From the NCBI GenBank assembly GCA_003602575.1, contig QQRY01000057.1, positions 96,137-156,670 of the forward strand: a stretch of DNA of 60,534 nucleotides. Reading direction: 5' to 3'. The stretch is from Candidatus Poseidoniales archaeon. Its GTDB lineage: Archaea; Thermoplasmatota; Poseidoniia; Poseidoniales; Poseidoniaceae. Within the stretch, counting starts at the first letter, position 1, and each line of letters opens with the position of its first letter. This document shows positions 19,630 to 60,516 of this stretch, one piece after another. A program made the position numbers and the translations under genes. The notes under the pieces were generated by a model. It saw nothing but the letters and a program-made list of their open reading frames with translations, did not search any database and was not told the DNA's origin.

Positions 19630-20751
19630 ATGAGTCTGGAACAATTAGAAAGTAAAATCTTATCAGGTGGCGGACTAAACTCTCTAGATGATAATGAACT
19701 TTATCAACTCGCTATACATTTTGTAGGGGACGCGCCACCATCCCACATTCCTAGAGAAACTGTAATCAGTATCCTATCTGAACAAGATTCCATTAAGAAT
19801 TGGCAAAATGATGTGAAGTCTAAAGCTGCTCAAATGGCCTCCGCAAAAGTTACTGAGGCGGTACAGAACATCCAATCTAAGATTGAAGAGGAATCTGATA
19901 ACCCTATGGTTGCAAAGATCAAACAAAGTTTTGGACAGTGGCTAAAAGATTCTGGTCATTCTGTCCAAGAACTAACAGTTAAGCTGGATAAAAATAGAGA
20001 TGGAATAATCTCGATAGAAGAAATCTCAAACTTCATAGTTGAATTAACTGGTAATCAACCTCCAGGCTGGGTACTATCACACATATCCACAATCCTCGAT
20101 AAGAATGGTGATGGTGAAATATTAGTATCCGAACTTTGGCAGTTCTTAGAAGAACTTGGGTTCCAAATGCCCGTTATTGAAGAACCGGTAATCGAAGAGC
20201 CTGAAGTTGAATCTTCAATTATTGAAGAAAATATTATCGAAGAAGATAACCTAGATGAATTTGAAAATGAGTTCAATAATGATTCTATTGAGATTGATAC
20301 TGAAGTAAAGGAGGTCCCTGAAATTATTGATGCTCAAGATTCAACTCCTGAACCGCCTGAAGATAATATTATTGAAGAAAAAACTGTTACTGATGAAATG
20401 GTTTCTACCTCTATAGAAAAGACTATTGAGGAGTTAGGAAATTCCAGATTACACAGTGAAGCAAACCTAATAATCGCTAATTCAGATAGCGGCCCTTGTA
20501 CTCTCAAGGTAGAGCGAATAGAACGTAATTTAATGGTCAGTGATAGTTATAGAGGCGGTAAAACCCTAGTTGGATTACTAGATGGTGGGCCATTTAGTAT
20601 AGCAGTTTTATTCGAGCCAGAATTCAATGATTTCATAGACGATAATGTTAGCAAAAATAAATCGGTTTCGTTTAACGCATCTGTGTTTGAATGGTCGAGT
20701 GGACTTAGACAAGCCAAACTAAAAGGAAAATCTCTTGAAATAAAAGATTAG
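19630..20751 (+). CDS. EF-hand domain protein with acidic linker and C-terminal domain of unknown function
   Basis: Two canonical EF-hand loops DKNRDGIISIEE and DKNGDGEILVSE, followed by an E/I-rich acidic linker. Confidence 0.85.
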   Translation: MSLEQLESKILSGGGLNSLDDNELYQLAIHFVGDAPPSHIPRETVISILSEQDSIKNWQNDVKSKAAQMASAKVTEAVQNIQSKIEEESDNPMVAKIKQSFGQWLKDSGHSVQELTVKLDKNRDGIISIEEISNFIVELTGNQPPGWVLSHISTILDKNGDGEILVSELWQFLEELGFQMPVIEEPVIEEPEVESSIIEENIIEEDNLDEFENEFNNDSIEIDTEVKEVPEIIDAQDSTPEPPEDNIIEEKTVTDEMVSTSIEKTIEELGNSRLHSEANLIIANSDSGPCTLKVERIERNLMVSDSYRGGKTLVGLLDGGPFSIAVLFEPEFNDFIDDNVSKNKSVSFNASVFEWSSGLRQAKLKGKSLEIKD

Positions 20752-50504: not shown

Positions 50505-52841
50505 CTATGATTCACCCTCTACGTGTAGGGTGCGGCCACCAAGCGGCGCAAAAGCGCTACCCGAGCCATCGTAAAACTTGCCCATCCATTCTACGAAGTG
50601 TAGACGGACGGCGTGAATTGTAGGGGAAAGTATTCCCAGTGCTATAGCAAATAATTGAATCAAAACGAATAGAATTATTCCTAATAAAAGTGCGACTATA
50701 TCGCCTGATTCAATTGCTGGACCTATTTTTTCCCAGCCCATTGTAATTGATACCTCTGCGATTTTAACACCTGCAACACCTACTCCCATTATTCGAAGAT
50801 AGGATAGAGTATTTGCTAAAAGACCGAAGGTTTCGATTGGACCCATTATCAGCCCGCCGACCCATCCAAACTTTTCATAGATAGCCAAGCCAATTACTAA
50901 ACTAACCAATCCAATCATGATTAGGAAAGTCCATATTTGTACTTCGAAAAGATCATTGTAATCCATTACCATATTCCTTGCTTGCATCGAGCCACCGGTC
51001 AAAATTAGTAACCAAGATCCTTTCTCGAAGTATGCTGCTGCCGCTCCATGAGCTTTGTAAACAGTGAATAGTCCAATTACAAGTCCAAGGAATATGTGAG
51101 CAATACCGATGTAAACTGATAGAACTACATATTCCTGTAACCCATGACCTGGGCTTGCTCTGTGGAATGGCATATGTAATCCACCAAGATTGAGTAAATC
51201 GGCAATAGCATGAGGTACGTGGACATTAGCATATGTCCAATCATAAAATGCATCGAATGGAGAGGAATTGCCAAGTTGTCCAGTATCATCCCAAACAAAA
51301 CCAAAGCCTTCGGCGAAAATTATACCCCAAATGATACACCAAGCGCCCATCCACTTCAGAATTGTAATTCCATTTTGAGCAAGAGGGTCTTTGGCGAAGG
51401 GTTTCGAACCCAAGAAAACTGCAAGTAAATAGATTAGTAGACCGTATCCCCAGTCACCTAAAATCATCCCATAGAAAAGAGGGAAAGTCATCATTAGAAG
51501 CATCGAAGGGTCATATGTACCATACTTTGGCCTTCCTACTAAATCAACTAAAAGTTCGAATGGTTCAGTGGCTTTACCATTGACGAATTCAATCGGGGGA
51601 ACTGCTTCATCATGTTCGGAATGTGAATCAGAACTGGTGGCTGAAACTCCCGATAATGCAATATCTAGTTCAGGCAAATTGATTTTACCATCCTTATTTA
51701 GATCGATGGCAGCCAAGAACTTGGCCATATTCCAAGGAGGCAACTCTCCAATATCTGCGGACTTCATGGCACTCTCGATTTCTTTAAACTCAAGTTGGCC
51801 AGAATCATCTAAATCCATAGACTTGAAAAACTGGAAAACTGATTGGTTGGAAGAGGATAAGTAATCTGCCAACATAACCAATTCTTTTGGAGTGCTACTT
51901 GTATGTGAATCGTGGTCTTCTTCATGGTGGTGATGTGAATCAACGTATTCTTCTATAGAAACATGAGATGCGCACTCAGATAGTGCTTTTCTGACTTCGT
52001 CCGCTTTGATTGTAGGAATCCATGCGTCGAGAGCAAATGCTTGATTGCTGACTGCAACCAAAGTAGGAGCGGTGAAAATTTGTTCTTCCCTTTCCAAATG
52101 TTCTTTGATTCTTACCAAGTTGGAACCATTAGATTTGGACCATTGTTCAAGAGACTTACTAGTACTTTCACTTTTAGAATGTAGTTCTTCAATAGTGCTC
52201 TCTATCTCTGATATCCTCTTACTAGGAGTGCCTTCTCCACTAGGGATTTGAACAGCCTTTGAACCCAGTTCTGCTAATCCGATTTGAACCGCTGCCCCAT
52301 CTTTAGGTTGGCATGCAATTGCAACTACTCCTTTCGAAGCTTTGAGTTCTATATCCTTAATTATATCACTGAATACAACTTGTGCCTTTGAAGCCTTACT
52401 GGTTTCAGCTAGATAAATCTCAACACCATCATAACCAGACATAAGTTCCAACGGTATGTCTAAAGGAGCTATTCTTGTTAGCGCTTTTAGTTGCTCTTCT
52501 AAAGAATTGATCTCTGATTCGCAGCCTCTAATTATTTCAATGAACTCAAGAGCGTCATCTACCTTTGCTTCGAACCCATCCAACATTTCTACAACATTTT
52601 TACGTGTAGTTGGACCATCCATGTTTATGGCGTTGACTTCCGATTGTAATGAACGGACTTTAGTTAGTAATCTACTTACTATCTCTGAATTATCGCTCTT
52701 AATAGAAGATCCTATTCCGATTCCGTCTTCAAAATTACTGTATTCTTCTATGTGAACGCACTTTAGATTTGTACATTGGCGGATTACTTCTTCCAAATTA
52801 CCGACTGGTGCAGCGACGGTTAATCTGGACATTTCAAGCAT
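50505..52841 (-). CDS. atpI: A-type ATP synthase subunit I with inserted EF-hand pair
   Basis: C-terminal TM domain RPKYGTYDPSMLLMMTFPLFYGMILGDWGYGLL...LSYLRIMGVGVAGVKIAEVS...HAVRLHFVEWMGKFYDGSGSAFAPL; EF loops DLDDSGQLEFKE and DLNKDGKINLPE in the soluble part. Confidence 0.96.
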   Translation of the reverse strand: MLEMSRLTVAAPVGNLEEVIRQCTNLKCVHIEEYSNFEDGIGIGSSIKSDNSEIVSRLLTKVRSLQSEVNAINMDGPTTRKNVVEMLDGFEAKVDDALEFIEIIRGCESEINSLEEQLKALTRIAPLDIPLELMSGYDGVEIYLAETSKASKAQVVFSDIIKDIELKASKGVVAIACQPKDGAAVQIGLAELGSKAVQIPSGEGTPSKRISEIESTIEELHSKSESTSKSLEQWSKSNGSNLVRIKEHLEREEQIFTAPTLVAVSNQAFALDAWIPTIKADEVRKALSECASHVSIEEYVDSHHHHEEDHDSHTSSTPKELVMLADYLSSSNQSVFQFFKSMDLDDSGQLEFKEIESAMKSADIGELPPWNMAKFLAAIDLNKDGKINLPELDIALSGVSATSSDSHSEHDEAVPPIEFVNGKATEPFELLVDLVGRPKYGTYDPSMLLMMTFPLFYGMILGDWGYGLLIYLLAVFLGSKPFAKDPLAQNGITILKWMGAWCIIWGIIFAEGFGFVWDDTGQLGNSSPFDAFYDWTYANVHVPHAIADLLNLGGLHMPFHRASPGHGLQEYVVLSVYIGIAHIFLGLVIGLFTVYKAHGAAAAYFEKGSWLLILTGGSMQARNMVMDYNDLFEVQIWTFLIMIGLVSLVIGLAIYEKFGWVGGLIMGPIETFGLLANTLSYLRIMGVGVAGVKIAEVSITMGWEKIGPAIESGDIVALLLGIILFVLIQLFAIALGILSPTIHAVRLHFVEWMGKFYDGSGSAFAPLGGRTLHVEGES

Positions 52842-54074: not shown

Positions 54075-54887
54075 TCAAGCAATACGCTCAACTGTTTCAG
54101 GAGTAATACCTTCTTCAGGAGTCACTCTAAATACAAGTATCTTCAAATTTTCCGGAGCATTTCTAAACTTGGAAACTATCATAGATGTTTCAAAATCAGT
54201 ACCTATAGTCCTAACTTGGAAAGATAGTACCATATCTGCAATTGATGCTAATTCTTGTTTTACTGAAGGAGAAAGTCCGTCGGTAGATACTGAAATTAAA
54301 ATCAAACCTCTGTATAATTGTGCGTGTGCTTGTAACATTCTAACCATAGCGACAACTCTCGCAGGGTCGTCTCTTTGAAGGAAGAAATCTAGACTGTCGA
54401 TAACTGCTCTAAAATATGGCCCTAAAGCCATAACTTCATTTGTAACTTCGGTCAAATAATCCTGTGTCACATCATCTACGAATCTCGTTTGGGCTAATCT
54501 TTGAATGTCTTCAAGCCTAAAGCCTTCCAATCTATACCTGCTTGCCAATAATTCTTTTTCCAGAACATTTGAATTGTATTCTTCTCCAATAGTCCTTACA
54601 TTGATATCTAAAGGCCAGTCATACTTTTGAAAAATTCTAACAATCTCTGCCTGCCCTTCATTAGTCGAGATGTAAAGGGTGTTTTCAGCTTCTTCTGCGG
54701 GTGAAACGAATTGTTTGGCGAATAATTCACTTCCTGAACCTGTGCCTGTAAATGCTATCATCGTGAAACCTCTAGGAACTCCACCATGCATTTCATTATC
54801 GAACTTCGGAACTCCAAAAGAACCGACTGAGCCAAAGAATTTCTCATCTTCCTCATCAAACTTGAATTCTTTTGCCATGAATCTCAC
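54075..54887 (-). CDS. KaiC/RecA-like protein, degenerate Walker A
   Basis: FGVPKFDNEMHGGVPRGFTMIAFTGTGSGSELFAKQFVSPAEEAENTLYISTNEG; FRAVIDSLDFFL; KaiC-like order with the P-loop Lys missing. Confidence 0.8.
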   Translation of the reverse strand: MRFMAKEFKFDEEDEKFFGSVGSFGVPKFDNEMHGGVPRGFTMIAFTGTGSGSELFAKQFVSPAEEAENTLYISTNEGQAEIVRIFQKYDWPLDINVRTIGEEYNSNVLEKELLASRYRLEGFRLEDIQRLAQTRFVDDVTQDYLTEVTNEVMALGPYFRAVIDSLDFFLQRDDPARVVAMVRMLQAHAQLYRGLILISVSTDGLSPSVKQELASIADMVLSFQVRTIGTDFETSMIVSKFRNAPENLKILVFRVTPEEGITPETVERIA

Positions 54888-54888
54888 C

Positions 54889-55482
54889 TCAGTGTATTAC
54901 AACCTGACCTCTGTCGATAAGGTCTGTACAGTATAGATCTAAATTTGACAAAACCAATGGCGGTGTTTGGTCAGGTACATTTAGAATAACAGTTAGAACT
55001 TCCTGCTGTCTAAATGTGTTAATGAATGTGTGAAGATATTCAGCCAACATTCTGTCCTCGTTGTAAATAGCTAGAGAATTAACGCTGTCAAGGAATATAA
55101 AATTGCGTTCATGTTCAGTGGTTTTTAGAATATATAAGGTGCGCAAAAGTACAGATTCTAGCATGATAGGGCTGTCAACAAAATGAACATTGGAATAAGG
55201 TACTGTCGTCCCTCCTAAAATCCCTGACGATACTAAATCGATGAATTGTATATGAGAGACATCCACTCCTATTGCCTCAAAGCCTTGGATGACTTCTGCC
55301 GCACCTCTACTTGCGCTAATATATACTCCGCTCATCTCAAACATCTGTAGTAGTGGTATCATAGTACTGGCCGTCACCATAAATGCATTAGAGTTGCCAC
55401 AGCGGACTTGAACTGCGCTATTTAGTGAAACCTCTGTGAGTTGATCCGATATACCCTGGTCTAGTTCAAACATATCATGCAC
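54889..55482 (-). CDS. KaiC/RecA-like protein lacking a P-loop
   Basis: NAFMVTASTMIPLLQMFEMSGVYISASRGAAEVIQGFEAIGVDVSHIQFID...RNFIFLDSVNSLAIYN; RecA-like layout without GxxxxGKT. Confidence 0.68.
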   Translation of the reverse strand: MHDMFELDQGISDQLTEVSLNSAVQVRCGNSNAFMVTASTMIPLLQMFEMSGVYISASRGAAEVIQGFEAIGVDVSHIQFIDLVSSGILGGTTVPYSNVHFVDSPIMLESVLLRTLYILKTTEHERNFIFLDSVNSLAIYNEDRMLAEYLHTFINTFRQQEVLTVILNVPDQTPPLVLSNLDLYCTDLIDRGQVVIH

Positions 55483-56257
55483 CCCATCTATTCTGTGTAT
55501 CGCTTACTGCGCCCCATTTTAACATTGGAGTCAGCATTACTCCAAGAGGGGTTAATTCGATGGCATGCTTAGCCCTACTGTGAGAAGTTCCCCTCATTTT
55601 TACTACTTGTAAAAATCTTAGCAAGTGACCCATTCGCTCTACATCTCCAAGTACGATAATTCCATCTGCAATTGCTTCTTCAACACCAAAAGATGACCAA
55701 TGTGCGTTTTCGGTAGCAGAGGTAATCTCTGCGATCAAAATTGTTGTGCAGCCTAGAGTTGCTAACTTTTTACCAAGTGTAAACAAGAAGTCTCGAATCA
55801 ACTGCTCGGATTTAATCTTATAACAAAGCGTAGTTACCGAATCGATAACCAATCTAGTGACACCAATTGTATTGACAATGTCCACTATGGCTTTAATCAA
55901 AGAATGAACATCATCTAAATCGAAAGACGACTTTTCCAATCCCAGCCAAGAGTATAGAACGTCCATATCAAATACATTTATCAGGCCTGAATCTACCATT
56001 TTAACATCAAAGAATTGAAATTGCCTGATGTTTTCAAGAAGTTTTACAGAGGGTTCAGTAGCGGTGAAATGGGCACATGCCTCGCCAGCATCGGCTCCTC
56101 TGACTAAAAATTCCATGCCTAGAGTGGTCTTTCCTGAACCACAGGTTCCTGAAGCCAAAACTGTTGAACCATAGGGTATGCCACCTCTTAGAATTTCATC
56201 TAGACCATGCACGCCTGTAATGCATCGGTCTCGGGAATATTGGCCGGCTGGTTGCAT
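55475..56257 (-). CDS. KaiC-family RecA-like ATPase (intact Walker A)
   Basis: ITGVHGLDEILRGGIPYGSTVLASGTCGSGKTTLGMEFLVRGADAGEACAHFTATEP; TRLVIDSVTTL. Confidence 0.92.
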   Translation of the reverse strand: MQPAGQYSRDRCITGVHGLDEILRGGIPYGSTVLASGTCGSGKTTLGMEFLVRGADAGEACAHFTATEPSVKLLENIRQFQFFDVKMVDSGLINVFDMDVLYSWLGLEKSSFDLDDVHSLIKAIVDIVNTIGVTRLVIDSVTTLCYKIKSEQLIRDFLFTLGKKLATLGCTTILIAEITSATENAHWSSFGVEEAIADGIIVLGDVERMGHLLRFLQVVKMRGTSHSRAKHAIELTPLGVMLTPMLKWGAVSDTQNRWGA

Positions 56258-56346: not shown

Positions 56347-57423
56347 CTAATTTCCAGGACTAGGTTGTGAAGGTATGAACCAATCTGAAGAAGAAGCTGG
56401 GATGTTGCCATTCCATTCCAATGTTTGACTGGGTGTAAGGAAAAATCCTGTATCTCCGCCCCATTCAACTCTAAAAATCTCAAATGGTCTAAATTCAGAT
56501 AGTTGCGTATAACTCAGTTTTACTATCCCACCTCCATCATCAAGGCCGCTGATTGAACCAACGCCCAAAAAACCGGATTGACCCAAATCAATCACTTGGG
56601 TCGCATTTCCTACGTCTTGAGAAAGAGCATCACCGGTGAATAAAGTAGTCGAATGACCCTTTAAAACTCCCTCTTTTAGAAGTATATTGGTTTCCCCGGA
56701 AGGCGAAATATGATTAAAACTCCAACCTTCTAGAGATATTGCGAAATCATTAGGGTTGGAAACTTCAATCCACTCTGGGCTACCTGAAACCGAGCGAGGA
56801 CTTATTTCGGTAATGTGTAATGAATTTGATTTACGCCCTCCATCATGGACTTCTAATATCAATTGAATTTTTTCAGCCCCATCCTGGAAGGTCACTGACG
56901 CACTAGATGATGTTTGAGCTGTATTACGAGGAGTTCCACCTTCAAATAATACTAAATTATTTCTTGAGGAATTATCACTATCGATAATTTTTATTTCGAT
57001 AAATAAACTTAGCCCGTCATCTAGCCCAAGTCCCTTTACCATTCCATCTTCAGTTACATTGGAAAGTGAACTAACTCTATCAAAATCTAATTCTCCGTCT
57101 AGCATTAGTCCGACTTGGACTACACCATTATCAAGTTCATTAGCACTAACATCATGCCACTCAGTTGTAGCATTTTCATAATCAAGATTTGAATCTAACA
57201 TTGGAACAAACCAGCCGCTGTTTGATGTCATACGGTCAAGCCCATTGTATGCTGCACGATCGATTCGATCTACTGAGGTGTCGTTAGAACCCATTTCTAG
57301 TTGTGCCAAAGAGAGAAATGCTGTCAAAATCATCAAAAATAATGTGAAAGCTGAAAGAAATTCAATAACTGCAGTCAAACCATTTTCATCTCTTTGAAGA
57401 GAATGTTGAGACTGCTTGCGCAT
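56347..57423 (-). CDS. Pilin-like N-terminus fused to a lamin-tail-like domain; surface protein
   Basis: N-terminus RDENGLTAVIEFLSAFTLFLMILTAFLSLAQLEMG resembles archaeal pilin H-domain; SLHITEISPRSVSGSPEWIEVSNPNDFAISLEGWSFNHIS resembles LTD. Confidence 0.78.
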   Translation of the reverse strand: MRKQSQHSLQRDENGLTAVIEFLSAFTLFLMILTAFLSLAQLEMGSNDTSVDRIDRAAYNGLDRMTSNSGWFVPMLDSNLDYENATTEWHDVSANELDNGVVQVGLMLDGELDFDRVSSLSNVTEDGMVKGLGLDDGLSLFIEIKIIDSDNSSRNNLVLFEGGTPRNTAQTSSSASVTFQDGAEKIQLILEVHDGGRKSNSLHITEISPRSVSGSPEWIEVSNPNDFAISLEGWSFNHISPSGETNILLKEGVLKGHSTTLFTGDALSQDVGNATQVIDLGQSGFLGVGSISGLDDGGGIVKLSYTQLSEFRPFEIFRVEWGGDTGFFLTPSQTLEWNGNIPASSSDWFIPSQPSPGN

Positions 57424-57531: not shown

Positions 57532-60516
57532 ATGAGAGGAAGGTGTATGAGTGCAGTCCACAAGCGGCTAAATGGCAACCGGAAAAGTTGCTTCTCGTTC
57601 GTGTTGTTACTGCTGTTTAGTTCACTTTCAGGTATTGCTATGACGCCAAATGCGGAAGCTGCCGCTAATGGGGATTTAGGAATTGTTTCTACTGTCTATC
57701 CTTTAGAGGATACATGGATTGCTGCATATGACTCTATTAAATTCCAGGTTGAGATTGAAAATTTCCATGCAGCGCCTTCCCCTTCAGGCAGAGTACTAGA
57801 CTGGTATGTGTGTGAAGGAGTTAAAGCTTCAAATTTATGTATTAGTTCAAGTGTAAAAGATGGAAGTATTACGATAAGTTCAATTTTACCTGGCATAGTT
57901 GAAACTATTGAATCTCCTACTTTTTTCAATCCAAATGGATTCAATGGTTTAATGACAATAGTGTACAAGTTTGATCAGTTTGATTTTGACTCCAATAATG
58001 ATGTGTTCTCATTTACAGTCAACTCATCAACAAGTTTTACAGATATAAAAATGAATGAAGAGATTAATATTCTAGATGACATTGATAATCTTGCTATTCA
58101 TGAAGGACAACCAATCATAAATTCGAATACGACTTACACATTTCAATTTGATGGTTATTCACATCTATGTGGGTCTTGTCAAATTAATTCTAGCATAGGA
58201 TGGGAGTTATGGAATATAGAATCGGGAGAGAAAATTTCCGACTCAATGGTCAATTACTCTAATTTCCCTAAATATGGATATTACAAATCATTTTCCATTC
58301 CACTACCTGAGTTTCAACATAATGAAACCGGAGAATTTTTGATCAAATATGGGATGTTTGAATCGCAAGGTAGCCCTAACAATGACATGGTTACAGATAA
58401 TAACATAAAGCAAGAGATAATATCCATTGATAATCAAATAGATGTTGTTCTAAGTCAGATGTATCCATCCCATAATCCATCATCGCAAGAATATTATTTC
58501 GGAGAAGGTATGCTTACTGCGCAACTATTGAATGATGGCAATAAATCTGTACATAATCTAAGTACTACCATGGAAGTTTTTAATGCTGTAAATGAATTAC
58601 AAACTATTGACACTTGCCTAATAGAAGTAATTCACCCAGGCGATACATTTACCTGTTATTTTGATATATTCACTAGCGGGGTGTTTTTAGACTTAATCGT
58701 AACAATTCCAACTATCACTGAAGATGGTACTGATGATGTTACAGAGAATAATGTTATCGAAGAAAATACGGAGATAGTAATCCCTTCACTGAGTGGCTAC
58801 ATAGTCAATAATAACGAAAAAGCATGGTATACTAACATAGATCAAATAAGTCTTACAGGTAATGCTAATTTATTCGCCCCTGGGCCAGTTAATTATTCTT
58901 GGTGGTATGCAGGAATAATCAATTTAGGATATGGTAAAAATCTCACAATTGATTCTAGCTCATTAGGTCTTGGAGAGCACGTAATCAGGCTAACAGTGCG
59001 TGATATTTTTGGTAATACCGAGAATATTTTTGAAGTTGTGAATGTATATTATTACTCGGAAGAAGACAATTCTCCAGAATATATAGCCTCTGGAGTAACC
59101 ACTGAAGAATCATCGATAATAACCGAAAAGATGTTACCAATTATTGGAGAAACATATGGCGTAGGTAACGGTAAATCTCCTCTTTTGATAATGTCATTCG
59201 ACATAATTAGAGAATCTGATAACTCAAGCCTCTTTACCGGCTCTAATTGGATGGATATTGAACTGAATATGTCATATTTATTACTTGATTCAATTCCATT
59301 TAGTTCATTAGAGATTAGAACACTAGATAACTTTGAAGATACAACTTGGGAGGTTTACCAGGGTTCTGATCCAGTACTAGATACTGTTAATGAAAATATT
59401 TCTTTAACAATTTATGATAGCATGACCATACTGGTTATTGGACAAATAAATACTCCTTATGTATTTGCAGATAATTTTTCTACTTCGTTGATTGAAGGTG
59501 GCAAATTTAGATTAGACTGGACTCCTACTGGAGATGTAAACAATGACTACATAGGAGGATGGAACATCTATCAATTAGCATTGCCTGAAACAGGAGGGAC
59601 TGTATTTCCTTCTTCGAACCAAAATTTCAATCAATTAGTTTGGGATGATTTGACTACAGATTCATTTAGAATGTTCTTACCGATTGAAGAATCTCACTGG
59701 CTAGATTCTTTCAAAGTTGAAGATGGTTTTTGCTCATCTTATGCCATAGTACCCGTAGACAGACAAGGTATACCTTACTTTGAAAGGGCAAATGTCACCG
59801 TTGACGAGAATGGGGACGGTACTTATCTATGCGGGGACAACACTCCCCCAGAATCAAATGTAATTCAATTCAATCATGCTTGGGAATTTACTAATAGTAG
59901 TGATTGCTATAAGATTCGAAATGATTGGTCAATGTGCTATTCTGTAGAAATTAATTGGATTTGGCCAGAGCACGAAATAGATGGTAATGTGACTTGGAAT
60001 CTATATAGAATAGAGCAGAAACCTAATGGCATTGACATTTCACTAGCAACGCCTATTTTAGCCGACATTCAAGCAACTCCACTACAGCCTGGAAATTTCA
60101 CTGAGTACGGCTGGGAAGATGATGGAATTAGGCCGCAACGGACTTATTACTATATTTTGACGCCAGTAGACTGGGTAGGTAATGAAAAGGTAGTAATCCA
60201 GTTCCCATCACCAAACGTTGAAAGAGTGTATATTGAAGATGATTGGTGGTCTTATTATCAACACCTGATTCCAGTTCCACCTGAACCTGAAGAACCGCCC
60301 TTAGGCAATGAATGGCTCGGAAACTTTAGTGAGAGTTTAGAGCAGGATGAATTCAAGTATGCAGGAATCGTTGTATTGCTAACTTTATGTATCTCTTTGA
60401 TAATGCTCCCACTGATAATAAAGAAACGAAAGCGCCTAAACAGAGTCATCAATGCTAGAAATAGACAGAAACTGACAGATTCTATGGCTGATGAGTTCGA
60501 TGATTTCTTCGATTAA
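57532..60516 (+). CDS. Large cell-surface protein, signal peptide and C-terminal TM anchor
   Basis: Signal CFSFVLLLLFSSLSGIAMTPNAEA; beta-rich repeats; C-terminal TM YAGIVVLLTLCISLIMLPLIIKKRKR. Start ATG 57532 or 57547. Confidence 0.82.
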   Translation: MRGRCMSAVHKRLNGNRKSCFSFVLLLLFSSLSGIAMTPNAEAAANGDLGIVSTVYPLEDTWIAAYDSIKFQVEIENFHAAPSPSGRVLDWYVCEGVKASNLCISSSVKDGSITISSILPGIVETIESPTFFNPNGFNGLMTIVYKFDQFDFDSNNDVFSFTVNSSTSFTDIKMNEEINILDDIDNLAIHEGQPIINSNTTYTFQFDGYSHLCGSCQINSSIGWELWNIESGEKISDSMVNYSNFPKYGYYKSFSIPLPEFQHNETGEFLIKYGMFESQGSPNNDMVTDNNIKQEIISIDNQIDVVLSQMYPSHNPSSQEYYFGEGMLTAQLLNDGNKSVHNLSTTMEVFNAVNELQTIDTCLIEVIHPGDTFTCYFDIFTSGVFLDLIVTIPTITEDGTDDVTENNVIEENTEIVIPSLSGYIVNNNEKAWYTNIDQISLTGNANLFAPGPVNYSWWYAGIINLGYGKNLTIDSSSLGLGEHVIRLTVRDIFGNTENIFEVVNVYYYSEEDNSPEYIASGVTTEESSIITEKMLPIIGETYGVGNGKSPLLIMSFDIIRESDNSSLFTGSNWMDIELNMSYLLLDSIPFSSLEIRTLDNFEDTTWEVYQGSDPVLDTVNENISLTIYDSMTILVIGQINTPYVFADNFSTSLIEGGKFRLDWTPTGDVNNDYIGGWNIYQLALPETGGTVFPSSNQNFNQLVWDDLTTDSFRMFLPIEESHWLDSFKVEDGFCSSYAIVPVDRQGIPYFERANVTVDENGDGTYLCGDNTPPESNVIQFNHAWEFTNSSDCYKIRNDWSMCYSVEINWIWPEHEIDGNVTWNLYRIEQKPNGIDISLATPILADIQATPLQPGNFTEYGWEDDGIRPQRTYYYILTPVDWVGNEKVVIQFPSPNVERVYIEDDWWSYYQHLIPVPPEPEEPPLGNEWLGNFSESLEQDEFKYAGIVVLLTLCISLIMLPLIIKKRKRLNRVINARNRQKLTDSMADEFDDFFD

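Follow-up and report, generated by a model that had tools for sequence, protein, structure and literature searches.

Gene organization

The stretch of DNA that was analysed (the window, 60,534 nt) belongs to a Marine Group II archaeon with Candidatus Poseidoniales relatives and contains three consecutive genes on the minus strand, K1, K2, and K3, at positions 54075-56257 (Table 1). The encoded proteins have lengths of 260, about 194, and about 267 amino acids, respectively. A first-pass annotation, made from the sequence alone, had described three KaiC-like reading frames, one active-looking and two degenerate, and all three frames are present. It had also placed an 8-bp overlap between K1 and K2 and a 1-bp gap between K2 and K3. 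The tight coupling of the three genes stands, but both spacings have to be revised because other start codons are preferred. For K2 the ATG at 55473 is a likelier start than the GTG at 55482, judging from the sequence; the motif M[FIM]ExD at this ATG is kept in the alignment of relatives. For K3 the likelier start is the ATG at 54878 and not the GTG at 54887, which lies inside the GAGGTGA site. With these starts the spacing is 1 nt between K1 and K2 and 10 nt between K2 and K3.

Table 1. Features of the K1-K2-K3 cluster and its upstream flank (positions in the window)
Feature	Position	Strand	Support or conservation
K1, single-domain KaiC-family ATPase, predicted catalytic subunit	55475..56257	-	PF06745, KaiC structures, alignment A1
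K1 Walker A GTCGSGKTT, residues 37-45	56123..56149	-	G40, G42, K43, T44 identical in all 32 K1 proteins compared across the phylum
K1 KxR finger K220-M-R222	55592..55600	-	aligns with KaiC K224-L-R226
K2, predicted KaiC fold, no P-loop and no KxR strand	54889..55473	-	ATG start; AlphaFold2 and Foldseek
GGGGTG, ribosome-binding-like site of K2	55480..55485	-	similar site before the K2 ATG in relatives
K3, KaiC/ArlH-like, degenerate P-loop	54075..54878	-	ATG start; PF06745; AlphaFold2 and Foldseek
GAGGTGA, ribosome-binding-like site of K3	54884..54890	-	just before the ATG at 54878
K3 degenerate P-loop TGTGSGSEL	54723..54749	-	Lys replaced in 20/20 Poseidoniales K3 proteins; next Thr is Glu/Asp
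K3 KxR finger K240-F-R242	54162..54170	-	aligns with the KaiC KFR finger
LTD (lamin-tail) protein, prepilin-like N terminus ENG followed by LTAVIEFLSAFTLFLMILTAF	56347..57423	-	PF00932 6.6e-7, just under cut-off
Large, divergent protein (membrane or surface) in the upstream flank	57532..60516	+	same place in most Poseidoniales loci

The K1 protein

By its sequence, K1 is a canonical single-domain KaiC ATPase. It matches the KaiC model PF06745 with an E-value of 5.6e-53 and 180 bits (cut-off 26.6), and its best match by sequence among KaiC structures is 8zn5 (1.5e-42). The protein features one KaiC domain, not two in tandem, and it scores below the cut-offs of TIGR02655 (101 bits, cut-off 546) and of the ArlH model NF052589 (36.4 bits, cut-off 215). 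The P-loop noted in the first-pass annotation is intact, and both the Walker A motif and the KxR finger are conserved across Poseidoniales in alignment A1. The Walker A lysine is invariant phylum-wide (32/32), and the KxR arginine is missing only in families f30, f37, and f38. K3 is also absent from these three families and their K1 proteins cluster in the tree, so the arginine was probably lost in a single event. At five loci with K1 and K2 and without K3 (L172, L180, L186, L203, and L204), the finger arginine of K1 is replaced (KMK, KMA, KMS), much of the family similarity of K1 is gone, and a pilin gene occupies the place of K3.

The K2 and K3 proteins

The absence of a P-loop from K2, noticed at first pass, extends to 27/27 K2 proteins, and K2 stops short of the finger strand. 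Its match to PF06745 is weak (1.3e-4, 21.8 bits) and lies under the curated cut-off of 26.6; a search of the PDB by sequence profile found no relatives of K2. The AlphaFold2 model of K2, built with 19 relatives, has a mean pLDDT of 71.7. Foldseek against the PDB gave KaiC-family matches to this model, among them PH0186, PH0284, KaiC, and ArlH (4yds), with 2zts as the best entry (E 5.6e-6); the TM-scores are about 0.56-0.63 and the KaiC and ArlH matches have E-values of about 1e-5. The K2 family features two conserved motifs of its own, DSPIMLE and DSVNALAIYNE. The DUF7090 model matches 23 of the 27 K2 members (best 5.3e-8), with the K2 of the window below the cut-off, and it also gives a match in Haloferax volcanii. 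The Pfam model Iki1/Elp5 matches 13 of the 27 weakly (best 5.9e-5), too weakly to claim a kinship of K2 with Elp5.

K3 is closer to the known family. Its match to PF06745 (3.3e-16, 59.8 bits) is above the cut-off of 26.6, and its best NCBIfam match is ArlH (8.5e-15), where its 55.1 bits against NF052589 fall below the cut-off of 215. K3 also matches DUF7504 and DUF7125, with the K3 of the window below those cut-offs. The AlphaFold2 model of K3, built with 20 relatives, has a mean pLDDT of 78.1, and Foldseek matched it to KaiC (1.1e-15) and ArlH 4yds (9e-14). Comparison of family profiles with that of K1 gave 3e-7 for K2 and 1.4e-17 for K3. The fold predictions are of moderate confidence, yet they agree with the profile comparison. 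K2, despite its lost P-loop, and K3 are both predicted from these models to retain a KaiC/ArlH-like fold, in keeping with the RecA-like fold that the earlier proposal had assumed for both degenerate proteins.

The K3 P-loop without lysine was confirmed. Phylum-wide, the Walker A lysine of K3 is lost except in family f3, and the threonine that follows is nearly always Glu or Asp. The finger is retained: among 20 Poseidoniales proteins R242 and N243 never vary and K240 hardly does, while across the phylum N243 is invariant, K240 is nearly so, and K-x-[RK]-N is present in nearly all. FRN and TPETV are conserved motifs specific to the K3 family. The division into one catalytic and two non-catalytic proteins put forward earlier therefore applies to this genome and to most of the phylum, but not to family f3, whose K3 keeps the lysine. 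Family f3 (L183, L184, L201), which is probably Marine Group III, another lineage of the same class, has a K3 with the sequence GSGKEL. These K3 proteins are nested in the lysine-less K3 group of the tree, which would require either a regain or repeated losses.

Conservation and phylogeny

K3 was detected in 87/146 Poseidoniales genomes (E <= 0.01, two weak matches included). It is present in essentially all of family f1 and, within f2, in genera g14, g16, g18, and g21. The order K1-K2-K3 is unchanged in all Poseidoniales loci with enough sequence, 20 of which were read in detail. A search of the phylum with a K2 profile found K2 in 198/390 genomes and in 85/155 genera. Outside Poseidoniales, 40 loci from about 26 families were compared, and most of them have the same order with the same tight spacing. 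The joint conservation on which the idea of a complex depended is thus borne out in Poseidoniales and most of the phylum, which argues that the arrangement is not due to chance. Families f22, f30, f37, f38, and f54 have K1 and K2 only. No relocated K3 was found in the whole genomes tested from these families, where general KaiC matches reached 43-48 bits, versus 341-355 in controls. The existence of these lineages indicates that the core can do without K3. One locus with K2 but no K1 (L188, on a phage-like contig) was left out as possible contamination.

In a tree of 89 proteins, K1, K2, and K3 each fall on one side of a branch, with supports of 93/84, 100/100, and 92/99, and the three clades have similar internal branching. 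This result points to one ancient set rather than repeated local duplication. Relative to close relatives, dN is 0.01-0.09 and dS is above 1 or saturated; where dS is measurable, dN/dS is about 0.01-0.02. On these sequence comparisons the trio is under strong purifying selection. K2 and K3 lack catalytic residues, as decaying duplicates of K1 would, but their open frames, the purifying selection, the family-specific motifs, and the separate ancient clades all speak against decay. Together with the phylum-wide conservation, the selection refutes this explanation, which has virtually no chance of being correct.

Neighbouring genes and pilins

The functional context that the first-pass annotation overlooked is that of type IV pilins. 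Nearly every Poseidoniales locus of adequate length has the LTD gene directly upstream of K1, and this gene is the only pilin-like one beside the trio in the window, its pilin-like N terminus having been assessed by eye. An LTD homologue in L171 passes PF00932 at 2.5e-11. Conserved in Poseidoniales and L171, the LTD protein is, on sequence grounds, a possible candidate for an adhesive tip pilin. Beyond the LTD gene, Poseidoniales loci that are long enough feature, with few exceptions, a large divergent gene; the protein encoded by this gene in the window has no clear Pfam match.

In other Poseidoniales a type IV pilin (PF07790) follows K3 in the sampled loci of f2 (g16, g18) and of the f1 genus g9, and a gene similar to archaeal prepilin peptidases (PF06847) adjoins the set in genera g14 and g16. 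Type IV pilins lie directly downstream of the set in 14 of 34 non-Poseidoniales loci. In the same loci the 69 kb directly downstream of the set contain 20 pilins and the other flanks, 349 kb, none; ten families contribute to this count, in which loci within one family are not independent. Those pilins that were tested score above the cut-off of the Pfam model Pilin_N. In over half of the non-Poseidoniales loci (f3, f6, f24, f35, f43, and others) no pilin adjoins the set.

In the genome studied here the probable Pilin_N orthologue maps to C53:71241; a non-archaellar pilus operon, with a T2SSE ATPase gene and two TadC-like genes, lies about 5 kb from it. The trio shares no operon with the pilus ATPase and platform (TadC) genes, which in this genome are separated from it by about 74 kb of the contig that carries both (C53:76802). 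In trio-bearing genera there is also a second non-archaellar type IV pilus-like locus (L071:8814-13904, also L072, L076, and L077). Besides a T2SSE ATPase of about 507 aa and a TadC-like protein, it encodes a large membrane protein together with two small proteins that resemble pilins.

The downstream methyltransferase and A-type ATPase genes adjoin the trio only in part of f1. A function tied to the A-type ATPase or UbiE-like methyltransferase neighbours was rejected, as these genes are not beside the trio in g6, g9, g10, and f2. Subunit I of the A-type ATPase (50505-52841, minus strand) features an N-terminal EF-hand pair at residues about 335-392 (PF13499, 6e-7). This insert also occurs in G002, of the same genus (L044), and is absent in two other genera checked (L048, L070). 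The enzyme is, by sequence, possibly a candidate calcium-sensing ATPase. A second EF-hand protein is encoded within the window at 19630-20751 on the plus strand.

Co-occurrence with pilus ATPases and the archaellum

The trio occurs in 14 Poseidoniales genera, all with genomes that have at least two T2SSE ATPases, and the 7 genera without it have one T2SSE ATPase (ArlI-like) or none. At the genus level the trio therefore goes together with two non-archaellar T2SSE ATPases, 14 genera having both and 7 having neither, though trio-less Poseidoniales genomes are smaller, and genome size and shared ancestry confound such counts. For this reason gene adjacency is given more weight than co-occurrence. 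Across the phylum, T2SSE ATPases are present in 196/198 K2-positive and 132/192 K2-negative genomes. Many T2SSE-positive genomes lack K2, and pili therefore do not require the trio.

A role as an archaellum accessory, a second ArlH set, would fit the best NCBIfam match of K3 and the presence of an archaellum in most Poseidoniales genomes with the trio. However, this genome has its own ArlH in the archaellum locus (arlH, arlI, and arlJ on contig C7, the trio on C53). In Poseidoniales the trio is also found without ArlH (g16, g21) and ArlH without the trio (g13, g20). This dissociation led to the rejection of an archaellum role, which is most improbable.

Proposed function

The reading we prefer, which has nearly an even chance of being right, is that the trio is an ancient KaiC-family set in which the three proteins work jointly, driven by ATP, to switch a type IV pilus-like system of Thermoplasmatota other than the archaellum. 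In KaiC, Lys224 and Arg226 from the adjacent subunit contact the gamma-phosphate bound by its neighbour (PMC9599734). Because the KxR pair of KaiC is supplied in this way, it is proposed that K1 would be the ATPase, K3 the finger donor, and K2 neither. K1, K2, and K3 would assemble into a mixed ring, or K1 and K3 would form a ring joined by K2. The ATP bound by K1 would be hydrolysed once a neighbour inserts its KxR finger, and K3 would donate a finger without hydrolysis of its own. K2, which has neither site nor finger, would interrupt or cap the ring and may regulate it. The assembly state would then control pilin assembly or the motor ATPase, as ArlH is thought to control ArlI; the switching of a pilus machine by a mixed KaiC assembly is drawn by analogy with ArlH.

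The three proteins may instead be co-expressed but form separate homo-oligomers, with the degenerate members acting alone, for instance as ATP-bound scaffolds. ArlH has been reported as a homohexamer (PMC8978795) and KaiC is also a homohexamer, which makes homo-oligomers the default. This explanation appears unlikely in view of the phylum-wide gene order, the tight spacing, and the similar branching of the three trees; moreover, K2 has no finger strand with which a homotypic ATP site could be completed.

The strongest rival of a machine-level role is one at the level of expression, in which the trio is a general KaiC-like signalling hub that senses a signal, either from the cytoplasm or from the environment, and regulates the expression of surface proteins, including pilins, and not the pilus machine. 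KaiC-family ATPases near archaeal type IV pilus genes have been proposed as regulators by Makarova et al. 2016 (PMC4858521), and the many loci without a pilin neighbour point the same way. So does a gene located between K2 and K3 in L171 and probably also in L169. Nevertheless, the trio has no conserved DNA-binding or output partner, and the conserved neighbours (pilins, the LTD protein, and prepilin peptidase) look structural, which leaves a signalling hub doubtful though worth weighing. The inserted gene in L171 (L171:8285-9400) encodes about 372 aa and matches the methanogen output domain MetOD1 with 24.5 bits (cut-off 23.8), a match that hints at signal input to the trio; the probable counterpart in L169 (L169:3751-4875) is also of about 372 aa.

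Comparison with known systems

KaiC-family proteins are widespread archaeal ATPases. To our knowledge, little is known of their roles or partners in archaea beyond ArlH. A phylum-wide set of one live and two altered paralogues near pilins offers a concrete candidate partner complex. Marine Group II is an abundant, uncultured ocean lineage, and it gains here a candidate control system for attachment filaments.

Compared to cyanobacterial KaiC, K1 aligns over the full domain with an E-value of about 1e-40, and the P-loop and KxR finger are common to both. Cyanobacterial KaiC has two domains whereas K1 has one, and the trio splits catalytic and non-catalytic roles over three genes. No KaiA or KaiB was seen beside K1. 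The link between KaiC and archaeal pili was already published in 2016; K1 fits the KaiC gene next to pilins described in the consulted text of that paper, which mentions neither a conserved partner devoid of a P-loop nor a set of three genes (PMC4858521). No published description of the K1-K2-K3 set was found in an incomplete literature search, the scope of which did not extend to a 2017 survey of archaeal KaiC-like ATPases. In 2017 Makarova et al. reportedly treated KaiC-like ATPases as archaeal signalling hubs.

ArlH (FlaH) features a single KaiC-like domain, like the members of the trio, and the K2 and K3 models match its structure. It is tied to a machine derived from the type IV pilus, which resembles the pilin context of the trio. 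The ArlH hexamer associates with ArlI, the motor ATPase, and comes apart when it autophosphorylates (PMC8978795). ArlH is the product of a single arl operon gene and retains a P-loop, in contrast to the trio, which consists of three genes outside the arl operon, two of them degenerate; trio-bearing genomes have either their own ArlH as well or none. If the preferred reading of a pilus switch is true, the principle of ArlH, a KaiC ring steering a motor derived from the type IV pilus, extends to other archaeal pili.

The eukaryotic Elp4/Elp5/Elp6 (Elp456) proteins, part of a tRNA-modification complex, are three RecA-like paralogues in one hetero-hexameric ring. A kinship with Elp4 was dropped, as the PAXNEB/Elp4 match is equally common in K1, which is a plain KaiC. 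Elp456 is a precedent for how a trio of three paralogues could work. A tentative, more specific form of the proposal is that the trio would be a hetero-oligomeric ring with divided sites, K1 supplying the ATP site, K3 the finger, and K2 neither, an archaeal counterpart of Elp456 that would switch a type IV pilus machine in the manner of ArlH. If so, it would represent a prokaryotic three-paralogue RecA-like ring resembling Elp456.
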